From positions 695,845 to 759,844 of the forward strand of contig NZ_LMDK01000001.1 of the NCBI RefSeq assembly GCF_001425055.1: a DNA stretch of 64,000 bases. The letters run 5' to 3'. Source of the DNA: Pelomonas sp. Root1237. GTDB taxonomy: Bacteria; Pseudomonadota; Gammaproteobacteria; Burkholderiales; Burkholderiaceae_C. Shown here one piece after another: positions 20,762 through 46,802 of the stretch. The notes under the pieces are model-generated. The model made no database searches. It was given only the letters and a program-made list of their open reading frames with translations, and had not been told where the DNA came from. Each line of letters starts with the position of its first letter. Within the stretch, counting starts at the first letter, position 1. Position numbers and translations under genes: made by a program.

Positions 20762-20963
20762 CTCAAGGACTCCTGCATGTGATTCGATTGCCGCCGATGT
20801 TCGCTGGCGCGCTGGGGAGCGCCCAGGGGGCCGCACCCCAGGTGTTGCGCGCTGTTCAATGAATGCTTGTGGGCTGCACATAACCTGCGGGAATGCGTGC
20901 TGATGTGAAAGCACGCGCACGGTGCGCGGCGGCCCTCATACAGTGCCGGCGGAGGTTTTCTTC

Positions 20964-21896
20964 ATGCGATTGATCACTGAGGCCGATGTCGCGGCCGTAC
21001 TCGACCCGGACAGCGCCGTGGCCGCCCTGCGTGCCGCCTTTGCCCAGCACGGCCGCGGCCAGGCGCAGGTGCTGGCCCGCCACCGTGCCACTGCCACGCA
21101 GGGCGGCGCCGCGCTCGCGATCAGCGCGATGGGGGCCATCCTCGACGCCGACGGTGAGTTGCCGGCGGTGCTCGGCACCAAGGCCTATTCGGCGCGCAAC
21201 GGCAAGTACCACTTCCTCGTCAGCCTATTCTCGGCCGAGACCGGCGAGGCGATTGCGACGCTGGAGGCCAACGAGTTCACGCGGCTGCGCACGGCCGCGG
21301 CCAGCGCCGTGGCGGCCGACCTGCTGGCTTTGCCAGAGGCCAGGACGTTGGCCGTCTTTGGCGCCGGCATCCAGGCGCGAGCCCATGTCGAGGCGCTGAC
21401 ACGGGTGCGGCGCTTCGAGCGCGTGCTGGTCTGCGCGCGCAGTGGCGGCGAGGCCTTCGCAGGCGAGATCGAGGCACAGATCGGTTTTCCAGCCCAGGTC
21501 GTGGATGCCGCCACGGCCGCTGCCGAGGCCGATGTCATTGCGACGGCCACGCGCTCGGCCGTGCCGCTGTTCGACGGCGCTCTCGTCAAGCAAGGCGCCT
21601 TCATCGCTGCCGTGGGTTCCAGCACGAAGGTGGCGCGCGAGCTGGACGATGCGTTGCTGGCCCGTGCGGCCCTGGTCGTCGTTGAATGGCGCACCGCCGC
21701 CGAGCTGGAAGCCGGCGACATCGTGCAGGCCGTGCCGGGCGTCATCGTGCCCGAGCGGCTCGTTGAGCTGGGCGAACTGATCGTCAGCCCGCGTCCGCGC
21801 GAGGCGCAGGACATCGTCGTCTACAAGAGCGTCGGCATCGGCCTGGAGGACGTGGCCCTGGCTCGCCTCGTCGCCCACCGCCTGGGAGCCTGCTGA
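20964..21896 (+). CDS. Ornithine cyclodeaminase / mu-crystallin family protein
   Basis: A 310-residue NAD(P)-dependent protein of the OCD/mu-crystallin family, which includes ornithine cyclodeaminase, ketimine reductases and alanine dehydrogenases. A Rossmann motif LAVFGAGIQARAHVEAL is at about residues 120-140, the substrate loop GTKAYSARNGKYHFLVSLF precedes it, and VYKSVGIGLEDVA is the C-terminal family signature. ATG 20964 has a GGAGG site. Members cannot be assigned to one substrate by sequence alone. A structured repeat begins 10 bp after its stop codon. Confidence 0.87.
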   Translation: MRLITEADVAAVLDPDSAVAALRAAFAQHGRGQAQVLARHRATATQGGAALAISAMGAILDADGELPAVLGTKAYSARNGKYHFLVSLFSAETGEAIATLEANEFTRLRTAAASAVAADLLALPEARTLAVFGAGIQARAHVEALTRVRRFERVLVCARSGGEAFAGEIEAQIGFPAQVVDAATAAAEADVIATATRSAVPLFDGALVKQGAFIAAVGSSTKVARELDDALLARAALVVVEWRTAAELEAGDIVQAVPGVIVPERLVELGELIVSPRPREAQDIVVYKSVGIGLEDVALARLVAHRLGAC

Positions 21897-21905
21897 AGTG
21901 AAACG

Positions 21906-22126
21906 AGCCCCTCGCCCGGTCTTGCGCCGGCTGAACGCCGGCAATCCCGGTCGGTCTTGCAGACCGCGCAGCCGCCGGAGCGGCTGCTCTTCGGCAGGCT
22001 CAACAAGTCCACAGGACTTGCCGTGTCCGGCCTCAGCCCCCGCGGGGACGGCGATGCTCGCGGCATCGAGCCGCAAGCACATCGCCAACGCGGGCCGGCT
22101 TGGGAGCGGCCCGGCGCTCGGCCCGC
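21906..22126. repeat. Structured interspersed repeat, copy 1 (pairs with 45619-45835)
   Basis: A ~221-bp noncoding element with six successive hairpins: 21926-21942 (loop TGAAC), 21952-21966 (loop TGC), 21968-21987 (loop CGGA), 22004-22020 (loop ACA), 22050-22086 and 22090-22126. A second copy lies at 45619-45835 with the same hairpin order. In hairpins 1, 3 and 4 the stem sequences differ between copies but pairing is kept, while the loop of the first and the segments between hairpins are conserved. It begins 10 bp after a stop codon and ends 27 bp before dacB. I cannot name the family. Confidence 0.85.
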
Positions 22127-22152
22127 AATGCGCAGGTTTCCTGCGATGGCTG

Positions 22153-23568
22153 ATGCGGATCTCTTTGCCGGTCGCAGTGGTGCTGCTGACCGGCTGCGCG
22201 ACGACCTCGGTGCCCGACCCCGTACAGGCCGCGCTGGCCAAGGCCGGCCTGCCGGCGGAAAGCCTCGGCTTTGTGCTGCAACCGCTGGACGGCTCTCGGC
22301 CGGCCTTGAGCCAACGCGCCGACGCGGCGATGGCGCCGGCCTCGACGATGAAGCTGGTGACGGCGACCGTCGCCATGGACAAGCTCGGCATCAACCACCG
22401 CGGCCGCACCGAGCTGCTGGCAGGTTCGGTTCCTGTCGGAGGGACCATTGACGGCCCGTTGATCCTGCGAGGAGGCGCCGATCCCGACCTTGACTGGCCG
22501 GCGTTGTGGTGGCTGCTGCGCCAGCTGCGCGAAAGCGGCGTGCGCGAGATCCGCGGCGGCCTCGTCATCGACCGCACACTGTTCAAACCGACCCGCTTCG
22601 ATGTCGGCCTGCCGCCCTTCGACGATGCGCCCGAGTTCGACTACAACGTCATCCCCGACGCCTTGCATCTCAACGGCAGCCTGCTCGACTTCGAGCTGCA
22701 AGCCACGGCCACCGGCGTTACGGCGCGCGCCCTGCCGGCCCTGCCAGGGCTGAGCGTGGATGCGAGCTCGATGACCTTGTCAGCAAGGCCGTGCAAGGAC
22801 TGGGACGAGGATTGGAAACCCGCTCTTGTCCAGCCCGCCAGCGAGGGCTGGGCGCTGAAGCTGCAAGGGGCCTTCCCGGCTGGCTGCCATCAGCGCGCCC
22901 CGCTGCAGATCGTCGACCGGCAGTGGCTGGCCACACGGGCCGTGCGCCAGCTCTGGGCCGAACTGGGCGGCAGCGTGGGGCCGGGTGACGCCGAGGCGGC
23001 CGCGCCGGCCGGCGCCGTCGTGCTGGCCACGCACCGCGGCCGGCCGCTGGCCGAGGTGCTGCGCGGGGTGATGAAGCGCAGCGACAACGCGGCAACAAGG
23101 CTCATCTACCTGCAGCTCGGCGCCCAGGCGGCGCAACCCGGCGAGCCGACGCTGGCGGCGTCTGAGCGCGTCGTGCGCGACTGGCTTGCGGGCCATGGCG
23201 TCGACACGGCAGCGCTGGTGCTGGACAACGGCTCGGGCCTGTCGCGCGGCGAGCGGGTCAGCCCGGCCCTGCTGGCCGGCGTGCTGCGTGCGGGCCAGCG
23301 CGGCGCCCAGGGGCCGGAGCTGCTCGGCACCTTGCCCATCGCCGGTGTCGACGGCACGCTGTCACGCCGCCTGAAGGACGGCCCGGCCACGGCCCGAGCG
23401 CGGCTCAAGACCGGCACGCTGCGCGATGCCGTCGGCCTGGCCGGCTTCGTGCCGGATGCGTCGGGCAAGCCCTGGGTCTTCGTCGCGCTGCTCAACCATC
23501 CCGAGGCTGCGGCCAAGGGGCGGCCGGTGCTGGATGCGCTGGTGGAGTGGGTGGCAGGGCAGCGCTGA
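22153..23568 (+). CDS. dacB: D-alanyl-D-alanine carboxypeptidase/endopeptidase (PBP4, S13), lipoprotein
   Basis: A 471-residue S13-family penicillin-binding protein that trims or cuts murein cross-links in the periplasm. The N-terminus MRISLPVAVVLLTGCATTS is a lipoprotein signal with lipobox LTGC, so it should be membrane-anchored. The active-site motifs appear in order: SxxK in ASTMKL, SxN in SDNAA and KTG in LKTGTL, with the large insertion domain between SxxK and SxN typical of PBP4. The open frame extends to 21898 through the structured repeat; the ATG at 22153 is clearly the true start. Confidence 0.93.
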   Translation: MRISLPVAVVLLTGCATTSVPDPVQAALAKAGLPAESLGFVLQPLDGSRPALSQRADAAMAPASTMKLVTATVAMDKLGINHRGRTELLAGSVPVGGTIDGPLILRGGADPDLDWPALWWLLRQLRESGVREIRGGLVIDRTLFKPTRFDVGLPPFDDAPEFDYNVIPDALHLNGSLLDFELQATATGVTARALPALPGLSVDASSMTLSARPCKDWDEDWKPALVQPASEGWALKLQGAFPAGCHQRAPLQIVDRQWLATRAVRQLWAELGGSVGPGDAEAAAPAGAVVLATHRGRPLAEVLRGVMKRSDNAATRLIYLQLGAQAAQPGEPTLAASERVVRDWLAGHGVDTAALVLDNGSGLSRGERVSPALLAGVLRAGQRGAQGPELLGTLPIAGVDGTLSRRLKDGPATARARLKTGTLRDAVGLAGFVPDASGKPWVFVALLNHPEAAAKGRPVLDALVEWVAGQR

Positions 23569-23779
23569 AGGCTTGATCCCGAGCGGCGTCAGGCGGCGGC
23601 GTTTGTTGGCCGACTGACCGCGCTGCAACACGACCCGTCGACATCACGCCGGATCGTGTGTGTCAATCGCCTTGCCGAACCCCTAGTTGGAAAGTTGCTT
23701 AAGCCGCAGCGTCACCTATGTTTTCTGCTCGGCACCCGGTTAGGTATCGGGCGCCATGCCAAGGCAACAGGAGATCGCG

Positions 23780-24352
23780 ATGGCTAGATTTGCAGGGTTC
23801 AGGCAGGCGGCATTGGCATTGGCATTGGCCGCGACGTGGTTCGCGACAATGGTGGGGCAAGCGCACGCGATGACCCGGGAGGTCGACTTCAACGTGCTCA
23901 ATGCCACAGCGACGCTCCAGGGAACGTTCGGCTCTGGCGACACGCTGATCGTCGACACGGTGGTGACGCAGGAAACCGGCGCGCTGTCGCAGAGCGTCAC
24001 GTTCACGCTAGGGGCGGGCATCACCGGCTTGACCGGGCGTGCGGTGTGGGAGATCTCGACTGCCGCCGGCCCGGGGCCGCGCCTCGTCGGCGTCAACATC
24101 GACATCTTCGATGCCAGCAACACCCTCGTTATCAGCGATGCGTTCGGTGGTGTCCTGGGCGGATACGCCGTGTCGGCCTTCGACGGGGCCATCGGTCCCG
24201 GCACCTATCACCTGGTGGCCAATGGCACTGCAGTGCGCGATGCGGTGCTCAATATTTCCATCAGCGCGGTTCCCGAGCCGCGCACCTACGCGTTGCTGCT
24301 CGCCGGGATTGGGGCGGTGGGTCTGCTGGCGCGCAGGCGGCGCTTGGGTTGA
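23780..24352 (+). CDS. PEP-CTERM sorting-domain exported protein
   Basis: A 190-residue protein with an N-terminal signal peptide (cleavage near GQAHA) and a C-terminal PEP-CTERM tail: VPEPRTYALLLAGIGAVGLL followed by the basic run ARRRR. PEP-CTERM proteins are processed by an exosortase and typically reach the cell surface or extracellular matrix; no exosortase gene is in this window. The middle is beta-rich, low in charge and of unknown function. ATG 23780 has an AGGAG site. Upstream at 23679-23687 is the motif CCCCTAGT shared with the promoter region of the 1083-residue Tat lipoprotein gene. Confidence 0.88.
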   Translation: MARFAGFRQAALALALAATWFATMVGQAHAMTREVDFNVLNATATLQGTFGSGDTLIVDTVVTQETGALSQSVTFTLGAGITGLTGRAVWEISTAAGPGPRLVGVNIDIFDASNTLVISDAFGGVLGGYAVSAFDGAIGPGTYHLVANGTAVRDAVLNISISAVPEPRTYALLLAGIGAVGLLARRRRLG

Positions 24353-42361: not shown

Positions 42362-45300
42362 ATGACTGACCCCCAGCGCCGTAAATTCCTCCAGTATTCA
42401 GCCGCTCTTGGCGGAGCTGTTCCCTTGGCCGGTTGCGGTGGTGGAGGGGGAGAGGCCATGGCCGAGGCGACTGCGTCGGACGGAGCGACCGTCACTGCTT
42501 CGGTGATCAAGCTGCCCACGACCGCTCCTGCCCCCGCACCCGTTCCGGCTCCGCCCCCGGCTCCAGCTCCGGCCCCCGCACCTGTGGCCACTCCGACGCT
42601 CGGCCTGTTTACTGGCGCGATGCAGTTCAGCTTGGTCAGTACCAAGACGCAAGCCAAGGCGCCCTTCAGCCTGGGCTTCGCCTTCAAGCGCGGCGACATC
42701 CCGGCGGGCAGCACGGTGGGCTCTAGCCTGTCTGTGTTGCAGGTCACACCACGTACGACCTGGCCTGACGGCTCCCTGAAGTTCGCCCAGATCGCCGGCT
42801 TTGCCGACCTGACGGCCAACAGCTTGCTGACCGTGCGGCTGCGTCGCGTTGCAGCCAGCGCTGGCAGCGCTGCGCTGCTGACCGTTGCGGACCTGAAGAA
42901 AACTGGCATCACCGCCGAGGTTGGCGCCGGCAGCCTCGGCACGGCCAGCTTTGGCGCCGCCGACTGGGATGCGCCGCAGGCCACCTGGGTCAGTGGCGCG
43001 CAGATGTCGTCCTGGGTCTTCCGCAAGCCGGTGGGCAGTGACGCCCACCTGGTGGCCTGGCTGGAGGTGCGCCTGTTCGCTGGCGGCGCTGTCGAGGTGC
43101 TGCCCTGGATCGAGAACGGCTACCTGATGGTGGCGGGCCCGACCAGCAAGGCGGCGACCTACACCTTCAAGATCAATGGCACGCAGCGTTTCTCGGCCAC
43201 CATCGACCTGTCCCACCATTGCCGCACGGCGCTGATCAACGGCACGGCCCTGTCCTACTGGCTAGGCACCGACCCCGACGTGACGCCGCGCCATGACCTG
43301 GCCTATCTGCAGGCCACCGAGCAGGTGCCGACCTACAGCGCCCGCGTGGACGCCAATGGCGCCGTCGCCCAGTGGCTGGTGACCAGCTACACGCCGCTGG
43401 ACAAGGCCAATTTCACCTACGCAGGCGACTCCATGGCGGCCACCGGCTACCAGGAACCCATCGGCCTGCTGCCGATGCATGACGCGCTTTATCTGACCTG
43501 CGAAAGCAGCAACACCTATGCGGCCGTGGTGCGCAACGGCTTCGCGGCAGGTCGCTATCCGCTGTTCTATCGCGACGAGAAGACGCAGCGCCCGATCCGC
43601 TTTTCCCAGTACCCCAACCTGGTGTTGCACAAGGACAGCCGCGTCAGCGACCTCGGCAGTTCAACGCGCAGCCAGTTCACGCCCCAGCCTACCGGCACGC
43701 AGTCGCCGCGCTGGGACTGCGCCCACAGCCCGTCGGTGGGTTATATGGCCTATCTGGTCACGGGCCGCTGGTACTTCATGGAGCAGGTGCAGTTCGCCGC
43801 CACGCTGAACTACCTGAGCAAGGCCGACGAGCCCAATATGCGCCGTGGCTCGCAAGGCCTGGTGCAGTCCTGCTTCGGCGGCTGGCAGACCCGTTCCGCT
43901 GCGTGGCAGTGGCGCGCTCTGACGCAGGCGCTGAACGTGACGCCGGACGACGACACCACGCTGCGCCAGGAGTTCATCAACTGCGTGCAGTCCAACATCG
44001 AGAACTTCCACGCCGTCTACGTCGCCCAGCCCAACAACCCCTATGGCTGGATCCAGCCGGGCGAGGGCTACGAGAACATCATGCAGTTCGGTGCGGTCTG
44101 GCAGCAGGACTTCGTCACCGCCGCCTTCGGCTACTCGTTGTCCATGGGTCTGCCGGTACCGGCGGCCGTCGAAACCAAGCACGCGGCCTTCTTCCGCTGG
44201 AAGGCGCGCAGCGCCGTCATGCGCCTGGGGCCGGCCACCGGCTTCTGGTACGTGAATGCGGCCGTGTACACCATGAGCATCTCGCCTGTTGCGGTGCCCG
44301 ACTTCCAGACCGGCAAGGGACCCTGGTATCCCAACGATGCGGCCGTCTACCTGGCCAGCTATGCCAGCCTACCGGCCTGGTTCGGCGCCGTTGAAGGCAA
44401 GCTGGCGGGCGAGATCATGCCGGGCGATCGCGCGGCCTGGGGCAACCTGACGACGGCCATGGCCTATGCAGTCAGGCATGGCGTCGACGGCGCCGCCACC
44501 GCCTACCAGCGCCTCATTTCGGCCAGCAACTATCCGGCGCTGCGAGATGCCTTCAACAGCGCGCCGGTCTGGTCGGTGGCGCCGGCGCGGGTCATTCCAA
44601 CCTGGCTGGCCAGCAAGCCCTTGAACACCTGGTTCGAGATCCCCGGCACGGCTGGCGCCGGCGGCGCGGCAGTCGATGCCTACAGCGGCATCGCCATCAA
44701 CGACCGCACCAGCGAAATCATCATCGCGGCGGCCGGTGGCCATACCGATTCCTATGACAACCGGGTCGTCTCCATCAGCCTCGCGTCGGACGCGCCGACC
44801 TGGAAGGTGCGCTTGGCGGCCAGCAAGAGCTACGCGCAGAATGTTGCCCACTACACCGATGGCATGCCGTCGTCGCGCCATATCTACAGCACGGCTCATT
44901 TCATTCCGCAGATCAACCGCCTGATGCTGTTCGGTGCGCGCGGTGTGTACGGTTCATCCTGGGACTTTGCCAAGGTCGACGCCTTCAACCTCGACACCAA
45001 CACCTGGGACAAGGCCGGCACCTGGGCCGACATGCCCTCGGGCTATTACGGTGCTGCGCAGATCCGCGCGACCGGCGAGGTTGTCAGCACCGGCCTGAAA
45101 AAGTGGTCGCCCGTCGATAAGAAGTGGACGGACCTCGTCACCAACCCCGTGGGTGACGCGGTGCGCTGGCCCATCGCCTTCGATGCGCGACGCAACCAGA
45201 TGTTCTGCCTGCAATGGGGCGACGGCCAGGGCTTCGACCCGCAACGCATGGTGGCCAGCCGCGTTCCGCTGGGCAGCGGCCAGCAGATCGCCGTCACATT

Positions 45301-45613
45301 CAACGCCAGCAGCGCGCTGACGCAATGGCAGAACGAAAAGCCGAGCTATGCGGCGATGGACTATGACCCGGACAGTGACCGCTTCCTGTTCTACAGCGGC
45401 CAGGGCGAAGCGGCGGGCCGTGTCTACGTCGTCACGCCCAATGACAGCAATGTCTGGGACATGAGCCTGCTCAATGGTGGCAGCCAGAAGATCGCGCCCA
45501 CCCCCGACAACGGCAGCGGCCTGCAGAACCGCATGCGCTACGTGCCGGCTCTGCGTGGCTTCGTGCTGCTGACGCGTGGCAGCGCCAACCTCTACTTCCT
45601 GCGCACGGCCTGA
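42362..45613 (+). CDS. Large Tat-exported lipoprotein with C-terminal Kelch/galactose-oxidase-like region
   Basis: A 1083-residue protein not assigned to a family. The N-terminus has a twin-arginine motif (RRKFLQYS) and lipobox-like PLAGC, then a Gly run and a Pro/Ala-rich linker (residues ~50-77). Residues ~80-300 look beta-rich; ~350-700 include many Trp/Gly motifs (GGWQTRSAAWQWRAL, NPYGWIQPGEGYENIMQF) like an alpha/alpha-barrel of polysaccharide-active enzymes; ~730-1083 have repeated beta strands with YSGIAINDRTSEII and INRLMLFGARG, suggesting a Kelch-type propeller. A role in surface polysaccharide binding or breakdown is a guess. A structured repeat begins six bases after the stop. Confidence 0.7.
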   Translation: MTDPQRRKFLQYSAALGGAVPLAGCGGGGGEAMAEATASDGATVTASVIKLPTTAPAPAPVPAPPPAPAPAPAPVATPTLGLFTGAMQFSLVSTKTQAKAPFSLGFAFKRGDIPAGSTVGSSLSVLQVTPRTTWPDGSLKFAQIAGFADLTANSLLTVRLRRVAASAGSAALLTVADLKKTGITAEVGAGSLGTASFGAADWDAPQATWVSGAQMSSWVFRKPVGSDAHLVAWLEVRLFAGGAVEVLPWIENGYLMVAGPTSKAATYTFKINGTQRFSATIDLSHHCRTALINGTALSYWLGTDPDVTPRHDLAYLQATEQVPTYSARVDANGAVAQWLVTSYTPLDKANFTYAGDSMAATGYQEPIGLLPMHDALYLTCESSNTYAAVVRNGFAAGRYPLFYRDEKTQRPIRFSQYPNLVLHKDSRVSDLGSSTRSQFTPQPTGTQSPRWDCAHSPSVGYMAYLVTGRWYFMEQVQFAATLNYLSKADEPNMRRGSQGLVQSCFGGWQTRSAAWQWRALTQALNVTPDDDTTLRQEFINCVQSNIENFHAVYVAQPNNPYGWIQPGEGYENIMQFGAVWQQDFVTAAFGYSLSMGLPVPAAVETKHAAFFRWKARSAVMRLGPATGFWYVNAAVYTMSISPVAVPDFQTGKGPWYPNDAAVYLASYASLPAWFGAVEGKLAGEIMPGDRAAWGNLTTAMAYAVRHGVDGAATAYQRLISASNYPALRDAFNSAPVWSVAPARVIPTWLASKPLNTWFEIPGTAGAGGAAVDAYSGIAINDRTSEIIIAAAGGHTDSYDNRVVSISLASDAPTWKVRLAASKSYAQNVAHYTDGMPSSRHIYSTAHFIPQINRLMLFGARGVYGSSWDFAKVDAFNLDTNTWDKAGTWADMPSGYYGAAQIRATGEVVSTGLKKWSPVDKKWTDLVTNPVGDAVRWPIAFDARRNQMFCLQWGDGQGFDPQRMVASRVPLGSGQQIAVTFNASSALTQWQNEKPSYAAMDYDPDSDRFLFYSGQGEAAGRVYVVTPNDSNVWDMSLLNGGSQKIAPTPDNGSGLQNRMRYVPALRGFVLLTRGSANLYFLRTA

Positions 45614-45618
45614 CATGC

Positions 45619-45835
45619 AGCCCCTCGTCCGGCCGCACACCGCTGAACGCGGTGCGACCGACCGGTCTTGCAGACCGCGCTGCGGCAGTGCCGCAGCCCT
45701 TCGGCAGGCACATGGCGCCCACTGGGCGCCATGTGTCCGGCCTCAGCCCCCGGGGGGCGGCGATGCTTGCGGCATCGAACCGCAAGCACATCGCCAGCGC
45801 GGGCCGGCTCGGGAGCGGCCCAGCGCTCGGCCCGC
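45619..45835. repeat. Structured interspersed repeat, copy 2 (pairs with 21906-22126)
   Basis: A ~217-bp noncoding element with the same six-hairpin order as copy 1: 45638-45654 (loop TGAAC), 45663-45677 (loop TGC), 45679-45697 (loop CAGTG), 45709-45735 (12-bp stem CACATGGCGCCC, loop ACT), 45759-45795 and 45799-45835. Stems 1, 3 and 4 differ in sequence from copy 1 but are fully paired. It fills most of the 298-bp gap between the Tat lipoprotein and the dehalogenase-type gene. Confidence 0.85.
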
Positions 45836-45911
45836 AAGATGTTGACCCCGTCGGCTGCGGCACCGGCACTGCGCCGCGGACAACTGAAGGTGGCGGCAGA
45901 ATCGGTCCACG

Positions 45912-46802
45912 ATGTGGGCCGACTTCCAACCGCTAACCGTTCAGCGCGACGGCGTCACGCTGTTCGCCCGCCAGGGCGGCCCGTCGGCATCCGGCAGACC
46001 GCCCTTGCTGCTTTTGCACGGCCACCCGCAGACCATGGCGATGTGGCACCGGGTTGCGCCCACCTTGGCGAAGACGCGACGCGTCGTGCTGATGGACCTG
46101 CGCGGCTATGGCGACAGCGACCGCCCACCGGCCGGTGAGGGCAGCGCGGCCTATGCCAAGCGAGAAATGGCGCGGGATGCCATCGCGCTGATGCAGTCCC
46201 TGGGCCATGAGCGCTTCGCCGTGCTCGCCCATGACCGCGGCGCGCGCGTGGCCCACCGGCTGGCGCTGGACCACCCCCAGGCTGTGACAAGACTGATGCT
46301 GCTGGACATCGCGCCCACGCTGGCCATGTACGAGGGCACGACCGAGCCTTTTGCGCGTGCCTACTGGCACTGGTTCTTCCTGATCCAACCGGCGCCGCTG
46401 CCGGAGCGCCTGATCGAGGCTGATCCGATCGCCTATCTGCGCGACGGCATGGGCCGGCGCGGCAGCGGCTTCTTCGACAAGCGGGCCTGGGCGGAATACG
46501 AGCGCTGTATGGTGCGACCGGGTTCGGCCGCGGGCGTCTGCGCCGACTACCGTGCCAGCGCCGGCATCGACCTCGAACACGACCGTGCCGACCGCGCCGC
46601 GGGCCGGCGTGTGATTCCGCCGCTGCGTGTGCTGTGGGGCGCCAATGGCGTGGTGGGGCGTTGCTTTGACCCGCTCAAGCTCTGGCAGGCGGCGGCCGAA
46701 CACGTCAGCGGCCGCGCCGTCGACAGCGGCCATTACATCGCCGAAGAAGTGCCCGAGGTGGTGCTGGGCGAGGCGCAAGCTTTTTTCAACGACGAGCAGT
46801 GA
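45912..46802 (+). CDS. Alpha/beta hydrolase, haloacetate (fluoroacetate) dehalogenase type
   Basis: A 296-residue alpha/beta hydrolase. The nucleophile is aspartate, not serine: Asp108 in [18 protein letters not shown], as in fluoroacetate dehalogenases, followed by Arg109 and Arg112, which bind the carboxylate. Asp132 (LLDIAP), the halide-pocket pair His153/Trp154 in [15 protein letters not shown] and the catalytic His in SGHYIAEE are all present. It should hydrolyse haloacetate to glycolate; whether fluoride or chloride is preferred is unknown. Epoxide hydrolase is less likely because the YWHW pocket motif is specific. The stop overlaps the start of a dehydrogenase remnant. Confidence 0.86.

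Follow-up and report, generated by a model that had tools for sequence, protein, structure and literature searches.

A mobile repeat built of hairpins lies directly behind stop codons in Pelomonas and related Burkholderiales

The window (the whole stretch of DNA analysed, 64,000 nt from Pelomonas sp. Root1237, the genome designated G000) carries two copies of a structured element, both on the + strand and both where the sequence-only reading had placed them. The conserved core of copy 1, a long form, spans 21907–22125. Upstream lies a gene of the ornithine cyclodeaminase/mu-crystallin family (20922–21896, + strand; PF02423, E 1.3e-40), whose TGA stop codon (21894–21896) is followed by the left arm AGTGAAACGA (21897–21906), and similar TGA-AGTGAAAC arms occur in many tail-bearing copies. 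Hairpins 2–4 form a middle module (21957–22037). The stretch 22126–22150, compared with 13 empty TGATG sites, may be a decayed 3' tail; it is followed by a TGATG (22151–22155) containing the start (ATG 22153, picked by comparison with relatives) of a D-Ala-D-Ala carboxypeptidase (S13) gene (22153–23568, + strand; PF02113, E 1.4e-78). In the minimum-energy fold GAAAC at 21900–21904 can pair with GTTTC at 22136–22140, enclosing the element. Nearby, at window positions 23756–24352, an ORF of 198 aa carries a PEP-CTERM sorting motif (PF07589).

Copy 2 follows a gene without a Pfam family in the Pfam search (42362–45613, + strand; TGA at 45611–45613) and has the left arm CATGCA (45614–45619), a long-form core (45620–45834) and a middle module (45668–45747). 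The module is missing from the orthologous copy in the nearest relative, G002, which has the short form between near-identical flanks. The 3' stretch of copy 2 (45835–45887) ends in ...GCCGCGGACAACTGA and, judged against the tail consensus, is probably a decayed tail; it is absent from the empty sites, where CAGAATCGG (window 45897) follows 0–12 nt after the TGA of the gene. Elsewhere in the genome this extra 3' sequence matched itself and otherwise gave only short matches (E 0.0015 or worse); it resembled the common tail described below, in a decayed state. An alpha/beta-hydrolase gene follows (45912–46802, + strand; PF00561, E 6.6e-27). The spacing from the TGA to the G of GCCCC is 10 nt in copy 1 and 6 nt in copy 2, so that the stop codon that had been reported shortly 5' of each copy is present, and stem 1 likewise reads as described, GCCGGC/GCCGGC in copy 1 versus CACCGC/GCGGTG in copy 2 around a TGAAC loop.

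The element had been taken for a two-copy repeat, which proved wrong: a 34-nt pattern from its 3' end, allowed up to 3 mismatches, was found 121 times in the Root1237 genome (63 forward and 58 reverse), compared with 0 for the reversed-pattern control. A whole-genome DNA search gave at least 46 matches, with the best 40 of 225 candidates scored. A search of 60 genomes, in most of which the best 13 candidates were scored, gave 24 with a match, comprising 20 of 20 in the genus (Root1237 included), 4 of 16 other family members and 0 of 24 from other families. The sequence-only reading had proposed looking for further copies in related genomes, and a 22-nt pattern with up to one mismatch recovered them in 48 of 200 family genomes (Root1237 included) and gave no match in the remaining 152; in an order-wide set of 250 the same pattern matched Root1237 only, with none in 6 further family members or in the 243 genomes of other families. 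Among the matches listed the module occurs in Roseateles, Pelomonas, Piscinibacter, Rhizobacter, Methylibium, Rubrivivax, Aquabacterium, Ideonella, Sphaerotilus, Paucibacter and Rivibacter, plus MAGs. Rfam 15 gave 0 matches in the 64-kb window at the gathering cut-off; with E up to 1, positions 21880–22160 gave only RF01877, at 12.8 bits versus a cut-off of 90, and in 7 further loci the sole match was a c-di-GMP-I-GGC riboswitch (65.2 bits) in G002, at L304:6720-6810 on the minus strand, which lies apart from the element. In the open-access literature we recognised no paper describing this repeat.

The element exists in forms of ~82, 121–142, 197–222 and 275–293 nt, which differ by whole hairpin modules. 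Among 186 distinct copies with both ends (sizes include 3 nt past the core), 44 were shorter than 100 nt, one of them (L134) being a truncated larger copy, 83 were ~121–142 nt, 50 were 197–222 nt, 6 were 275–293 nt, and 3 fell in between. The longest form is made by an 80-nt hairpin block near the 3' end. Over 800 kb each of G000 and G002, the middle module adjoined the 3' module in 6 of 6 and 5 of 6 matches, respectively. At two sites, one of them that of copy 2, a long form in G000 corresponds to a short form in G002, so that GGTC and CCCC mark the exact points between which the block comes or goes.

Position relative to genes was examined at 78 distinct places of the 121 in Root1237, 76 of which had a recognisable 5' end; a codon-usage score, trained on 11 ORFs of the window, decided which frames were coding, and distance was taken from the stop codon to CCCC. 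Filtering out duplicates by their coordinates left the counts below unchanged. Sixty-four of the 76 copies start 0–11 nt behind a stop codon on the same strand (TGA 50, TAA 8, TAG 6), against about 4% by chance (a 0–13 nt zone makes up 4.2%, or 0.042, of intergenic insertion points times orientations in 800 kb). The 3'-UTR position suggested earlier is therefore right, and stricter than was proposed. As to the other 12 copies, 5 have an antisense gene on that side, in every case with a CAT within 6–20 nt, and 7 were ambiguous. A stricter filter for the 5' end gave 50 of 61 copies behind a stop, and 8 of the 11 missed also follow one when read by eye. In other genomes 73 of 133 copies fit the stop rule and 49 of 133 have an antisense gene there; under the stricter filter a sense stop was found for 57 of 73, with 55 of these at 3–16 nt. 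The neighbouring genes of 65 Root1237 copies were sense/sense in 33 cases, convergent in 24, antisense/antisense in 6 and divergent in 2, the baseline being 377 co-directional, 115 convergent and 114 divergent gene pairs. At co-directional junctions the element thus points in the sense direction 33 times and in the antisense direction 6 times (p ~1e-5, two-sided sign test by hand). The element lies directly behind the stop, mostly in the sense of the upstream gene.

The ~82-nt form has a setting of its own. Thirty of the 44 copies shorter than 100 nt lie antisense in front of a start codon and 5 behind a sense stop; the rest are near an antisense gene without a clear start (5) or ambiguous (4). 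Exactly 4 nt separate element and ATG in 24 of the 30 start-facing copies, and the coding strand there reads CGAGGGGC-NNNN-ATG before differing proteins (by eye). Comparison of the small-form and long-form settings indicates that contact with a gene, whether at the stop or at the start, is as a rule made by the CCCCTCG end.

We compared sites with and without the element between species. At the site of copy 1 a bare TGATG overlap was found in 13 of the 13 relatives in which both flanks could be read, and insertion is clear at this site since all relatives read agree. Eight relatives have the upstream gene of copy 2: 5 lack the element, 1 (G002) carries it, a different gene lies downstream in 1, and the junction is unreadable in 1. 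For G000 and G002, 800 kb each with 21 + 15 copies gave 24 distinct comparable sites, once 6 copies whose flanks had no orthologue and 2 whose flanks were rearranged had been set aside. Fifteen of the 24 sites are without the element in one species (12 readable junctions, and 3 with flanks touching or overlapping), 3 are intact in both, and 3 are common to both with the G002 copy decayed; the others comprise one site with opposite orientations, one with another hairpin repeat and one with unrelated sequence. At the first of these (G000 C1:450586, equivalent to G002 C12:522963) the copies lie in opposite orientations between the same two genes, each behind the stop codon of its own strand. The empty sites show that the element is mobile. 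Copies are dispersed, come and go between close species, and gain or lose modules as blocks; as in a MITE, the repeat is non-autonomous and dispersed and has empty sites. The sequence-only reading had named a mobile structured repeat as one of three options, and copy number, empty sites, turnover and modular size variants all speak for it.

The right flanks share a weak common tail, recognisable in a minority of copies. A profile built from 7 copies, applied to 133 held-out right flanks with a threshold of 12 bits, matched 7 of them, 0 of 133 in each of the shuffled, reverse-complemented and left-flank controls, and 0 of 42 right flanks of copies shorter than 100 nt. A 65-nt tail query gave 34 matches in 14 of 20 genus genomes. 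Thirty tail loci were read by eye, five of which (L397, L398, L399, L405 and L409) were chance-like and inside genes, and L400 was a short tail match; after exclusions the tail remains in 10 genomes. The 36 distinct tails stand after the element in 28 cases, after an unrelated hairpin repeat beginning with CCACAGAG in 6, and after decayed copies in 2. Strong tails read GGATAACTGACATG, with variants GGACAACTGAGATG and GGATCACTGACATG, and their ATG is by position the start of the next gene; hence the 3' tail of some copies ends at the next start codon, and it is common to the element and to the unrelated hairpin repeat. Many of the same tail-bearing copies have the left arm TGA-AGTGAAAC, and a full 11-nt left arm would fit the 11-nt upper limit of the stop spacing in Root1237. 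The second repeat, CCACAGAG...CTCTGTGG, precedes the same 3' tail at L408, L412, L414, L416, L395 and L149, and lies between a stop and a TGACATG start at G002 C12:256305 and 608529. Where G000 carries the element at C1:532177, G002 has the CCACAGAG hairpin.

The ends were inspected for marks of a conventional transposon. There are no terminal inverted repeats: the left arm AGTGAAAC does not, by eye, read as an inverted copy of the tail end GGATAACTGAC, and the sole inverted match near the ends is the inner GAAAC/GTTTC pair. Inverted repeats of at least 6 nt in the flanks occurred in 22 of 131 cases versus 15.8 expected, within the permutation range. A target-site duplication was suggested by repeats around TGA and ATG, with L070, one copy with a well-preserved tail, showing an 11-nt repeat around the stop/start; it was not established by tests that permute partners while keeping common flank motifs. 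Direct repeats of at least 7 nt were seen in 15 of 131 flank pairs versus 5.0 expected, tandem copies included; for 174 non-tandem copies the mean was 5.68 versus 5.43. The permutation gave 3/15 (p = 0.26) in one set, p = 0.017 for the mean (0.016–0.18 by threshold) in 86 copies and p = 0.16–0.19 for 34 copies. Protein coding was rejected by eye: one frame is open from an ATG near the 5' end, conserved changes alter the amino acids, and lengths shift the frame between copies.

The fold of copy 1 was better than that of its shuffles at z -2.55 (3/200 shuffles as good), and that of copy 2 at z -5.69 (0/200). Covariation was assessed on an alignment of 44 of the 50 long copies, six with a short first hairpin being left out, using 62 stem pairs of a structure named by the analyst rather than derived by a program. 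In these, 93.6% of cells are paired versus 86.0% in shuffles, and 25 of 62 pairs have changed on both sides (shuffle mean 16.2; 0/500 reach 25). Pair types were the sole measure matched by shuffles (2/500), the other measures giving 0/500, and shifting the partner by 1–3 columns dropped pairing to 30–38%. RNAalifold on the same 44 copies predicted 60 pairs, of which 22 have changed on both sides. The 3' helix is paired in 96.1% of cells with zero covariation, indicating conservation in sequence rather than by covarying. For the copies shorter than 100 nt (39 of the 44, distinct), 97.3% of cells are paired and 6 of 20 pairs have double changes, with pair types not above shuffles (264/500). Stem 1 keeps a pyrimidine-pyrimidine mismatch that flips between C.T and T.C in 39 of 44 long and 22 of 39 tiny copies. 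In the 3' hairpin, T.G (23), C.A (10) and A.G (9) interchange at columns 201/213 of alignment A1 (44 copies), as if the facing position kept a wobble shape.

Covariation beyond chance, as is looked for in a structured ncRNA, is thus present. The sequence-only reading had said that further copies without significant covariation would speak against it, and the further copies have it, with 25 of 62 pairs against 0/500 shuffles. It had also taken compensatory change as the signature of selected structure: the compensatory change stands, and a selected function of each copy is one possible reading of it, as the covariation could also stem from selection on transposition in source lineages, given that the shared copy is wrecked in the relative at 3 of 24 comparable sites.

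The element is probably a non-autonomous, hairpin-built mobile repeat of one Burkholderiales family that is moved in trans via single-stranded hairpins. An enzyme supplied in trans would recognise the hairpins in single-stranded DNA, as covariation together with decay in place suggests, and would insert the unit at a stop codon, in many cases one within a TGATG or TGANATG stop/start junction. The stop of the upstream gene would be retained and the tail would bring a start region for the downstream gene, so that insertion between overlapping genes would be tolerated. The covariation of the stems is proposed to reflect a need for every mobile copy to fold again before it can move; inserted copies would then drift and decay. 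The element is possibly steered to gene seams, or selection at the RNA level could account for the sense orientation and the spacing limit. That second option leads to a different account, which we regard with some doubt, in which the element works as RNA and as a selected component of operons, intercistronic or in the 3' UTR, and either shields the upstream message or fixes how much of the upstream product is made relative to the downstream one; ordinary insertion would spread the copies and they would be retained only where the job is done, directly behind a stop. The 0–11 nt spacing, the sense bias (33 versus 6) with only 2 of 65 copies in divergent promoter regions, the covariation and the start region supplied by the tail in some copies would all suit such an RNA. 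The wrecking of three shared copies in the relative would not, nor would the absence of sharing at most comparable sites, the unrelatedness of the two upstream genes in the window, or the mostly opposite setting of the ~82-nt form. That last setting could instead point to a functional RNA made from the other strand, with the ancestral unit a mobile 5' leader controlling translation initiation and the Roseateles forms an offshoot with a flipped setting. In the ~82-nt form the Shine-Dalgarno-like CGAGGGGC-NNNN-ATG stands at a fixed distance from the start, and 30 of 44 such copies precede an antisense start, 24 of the 30 at exactly 4 nt. The stems on the + strand also have more A.C cells, which are G.U on the other strand, than G.U cells (102 versus 26 in long copies, 13 versus 3 in tiny ones), a lead only, since cells are not independent and their counts are inflated by common ancestry; counted by pairs the excess shrinks to 21 with only A.C versus 11 with only G.U, and 7 versus 1. 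One pair is constantly G.U on the + strand, folds of four stretches (z -0.37 to -1.64) gave no one common structure, and the long and short forms are mostly in the other setting (115 of 136), and we judge an origin as a leader on the other strand unlikely.

Nor do we think it likely that the repeat belongs to the REP/REPIN class moved by a RAYT (TnpA-REP) transposase, to which it bears a resemblance as a non-autonomous extragenic hairpin repeat in more than 100 copies, many of them at gene ends; these general properties are those usually given for REP, BIME and REPIN elements with RAYT transposases (see also PMC2817692, PMC3116915 and PMC3733652). A match to PF01797 (Y1/HUH transposase) is present in all 30 family genomes searched, with 3 in Root1237; 8 of the 30 have no detected copy, the gene being as common in such genomes, and no copies lie beside the PF01797 genes at any of 13 loci (8 of this genus) within ~1.5-kb flanks. 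RAYT was thus rejected as mover, since its gene is present without discriminating and is not adjacent to copies; that some Y1/HUH enzyme moves the element is a guess with evidence on both sides. The unit, modular and 82–293 nt long, far exceeds REP palindromes of 20–40 nt, and alignments of 44 long and 39 tiny copies show by eye no conserved GTAG/CGTC tag of the kind that defines REPs (PMC3733652). REP/REPIN elements also differ from it in that it has a fixed place behind the stop and, in some copies, a tail ending at the next start. GTAG REPs are reported to give stop codons to neighbouring ORFs (PMC3733652), a likeness in gene-end position. Rho-independent terminators, or chance GC-rich hairpins, would fit the position behind stop codons and the high GC and are very improbable: the aligned copies lack a T run after the core, which ends in GGCCCG and is then followed mostly by CAA, the modules are sequence-specific and covary, and chance is already refuted by copy number (121 close copies versus 0 for the reversed control) and by covariation. 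More tentatively, and we lean against it, the repeats may be mobile junction cassettes aimed at translation signals, with a stop-to-start frame that inserts between genes and itself restarts translation. The hairpin cargo of such a frame would be exchangeable, the CCCCTCG...GGCCCG element and the CCACAGAG hairpin being at least two of its kinds, and the distinct ~82-nt branch would be the frame's mirror image in front of start codons. If true, transposition guided by stop/start junctions, perhaps by way of the nascent mRNA, would represent a kind of targeting that is new.

Descriptions of small bacterial repeats usually have them landing at no particular point between genes; the repeat described here has one precise place, at the stop codon, and lies on the coding strand in 64 of the 76 Root1237 copies examined. 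BOX of Streptococcus pneumoniae is built from modules in variable number, and BOX and RUP repeats are, like the element, small and interspersed; they belong to a different host group and are set apart by description, the element having hairpin-block modules at fixed points and a stop/start junction as its setting. Mitochondrial double-hairpin or palindromic elements are GC-rich and spread between genes, keeping their pairing while changing, and the element likewise has hairpins between genes with pairing kept through change; we know of no stop/start rule for these organelle elements, which were compared by description. RU-1 is ERIC, for which we likewise know of no stop-codon rule, and ERIC is set apart from the element by description. 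ERIC and the RU-1 and RU-2 elements are, in the part of PMC2759123 consulted, intergenic mobile enterobacterial sequences of about 100–170 nt that have been likened to MITEs. How a hairpin element is steered to gene ends, or kept there, can be tested, as can whether insertions re-tune operons by uncoupling genes with a stop/start overlap; natural before-and-after pairs exist, because at 15 of the 24 sites that could be compared the element is present in only one of two close species.

The forms from 82 to 293 nt make up a readable series of a structured element growing by added hairpins. The ~82-nt form also occurs in tandem with 89–91 nt spacing, and head-to-tail arrays of this form or of its 3' module, with 2–6 copies at that spacing, were seen at G238 C1:579524-579990 and C1:2070486-2070868 and at L111, L152, L171 and L212.
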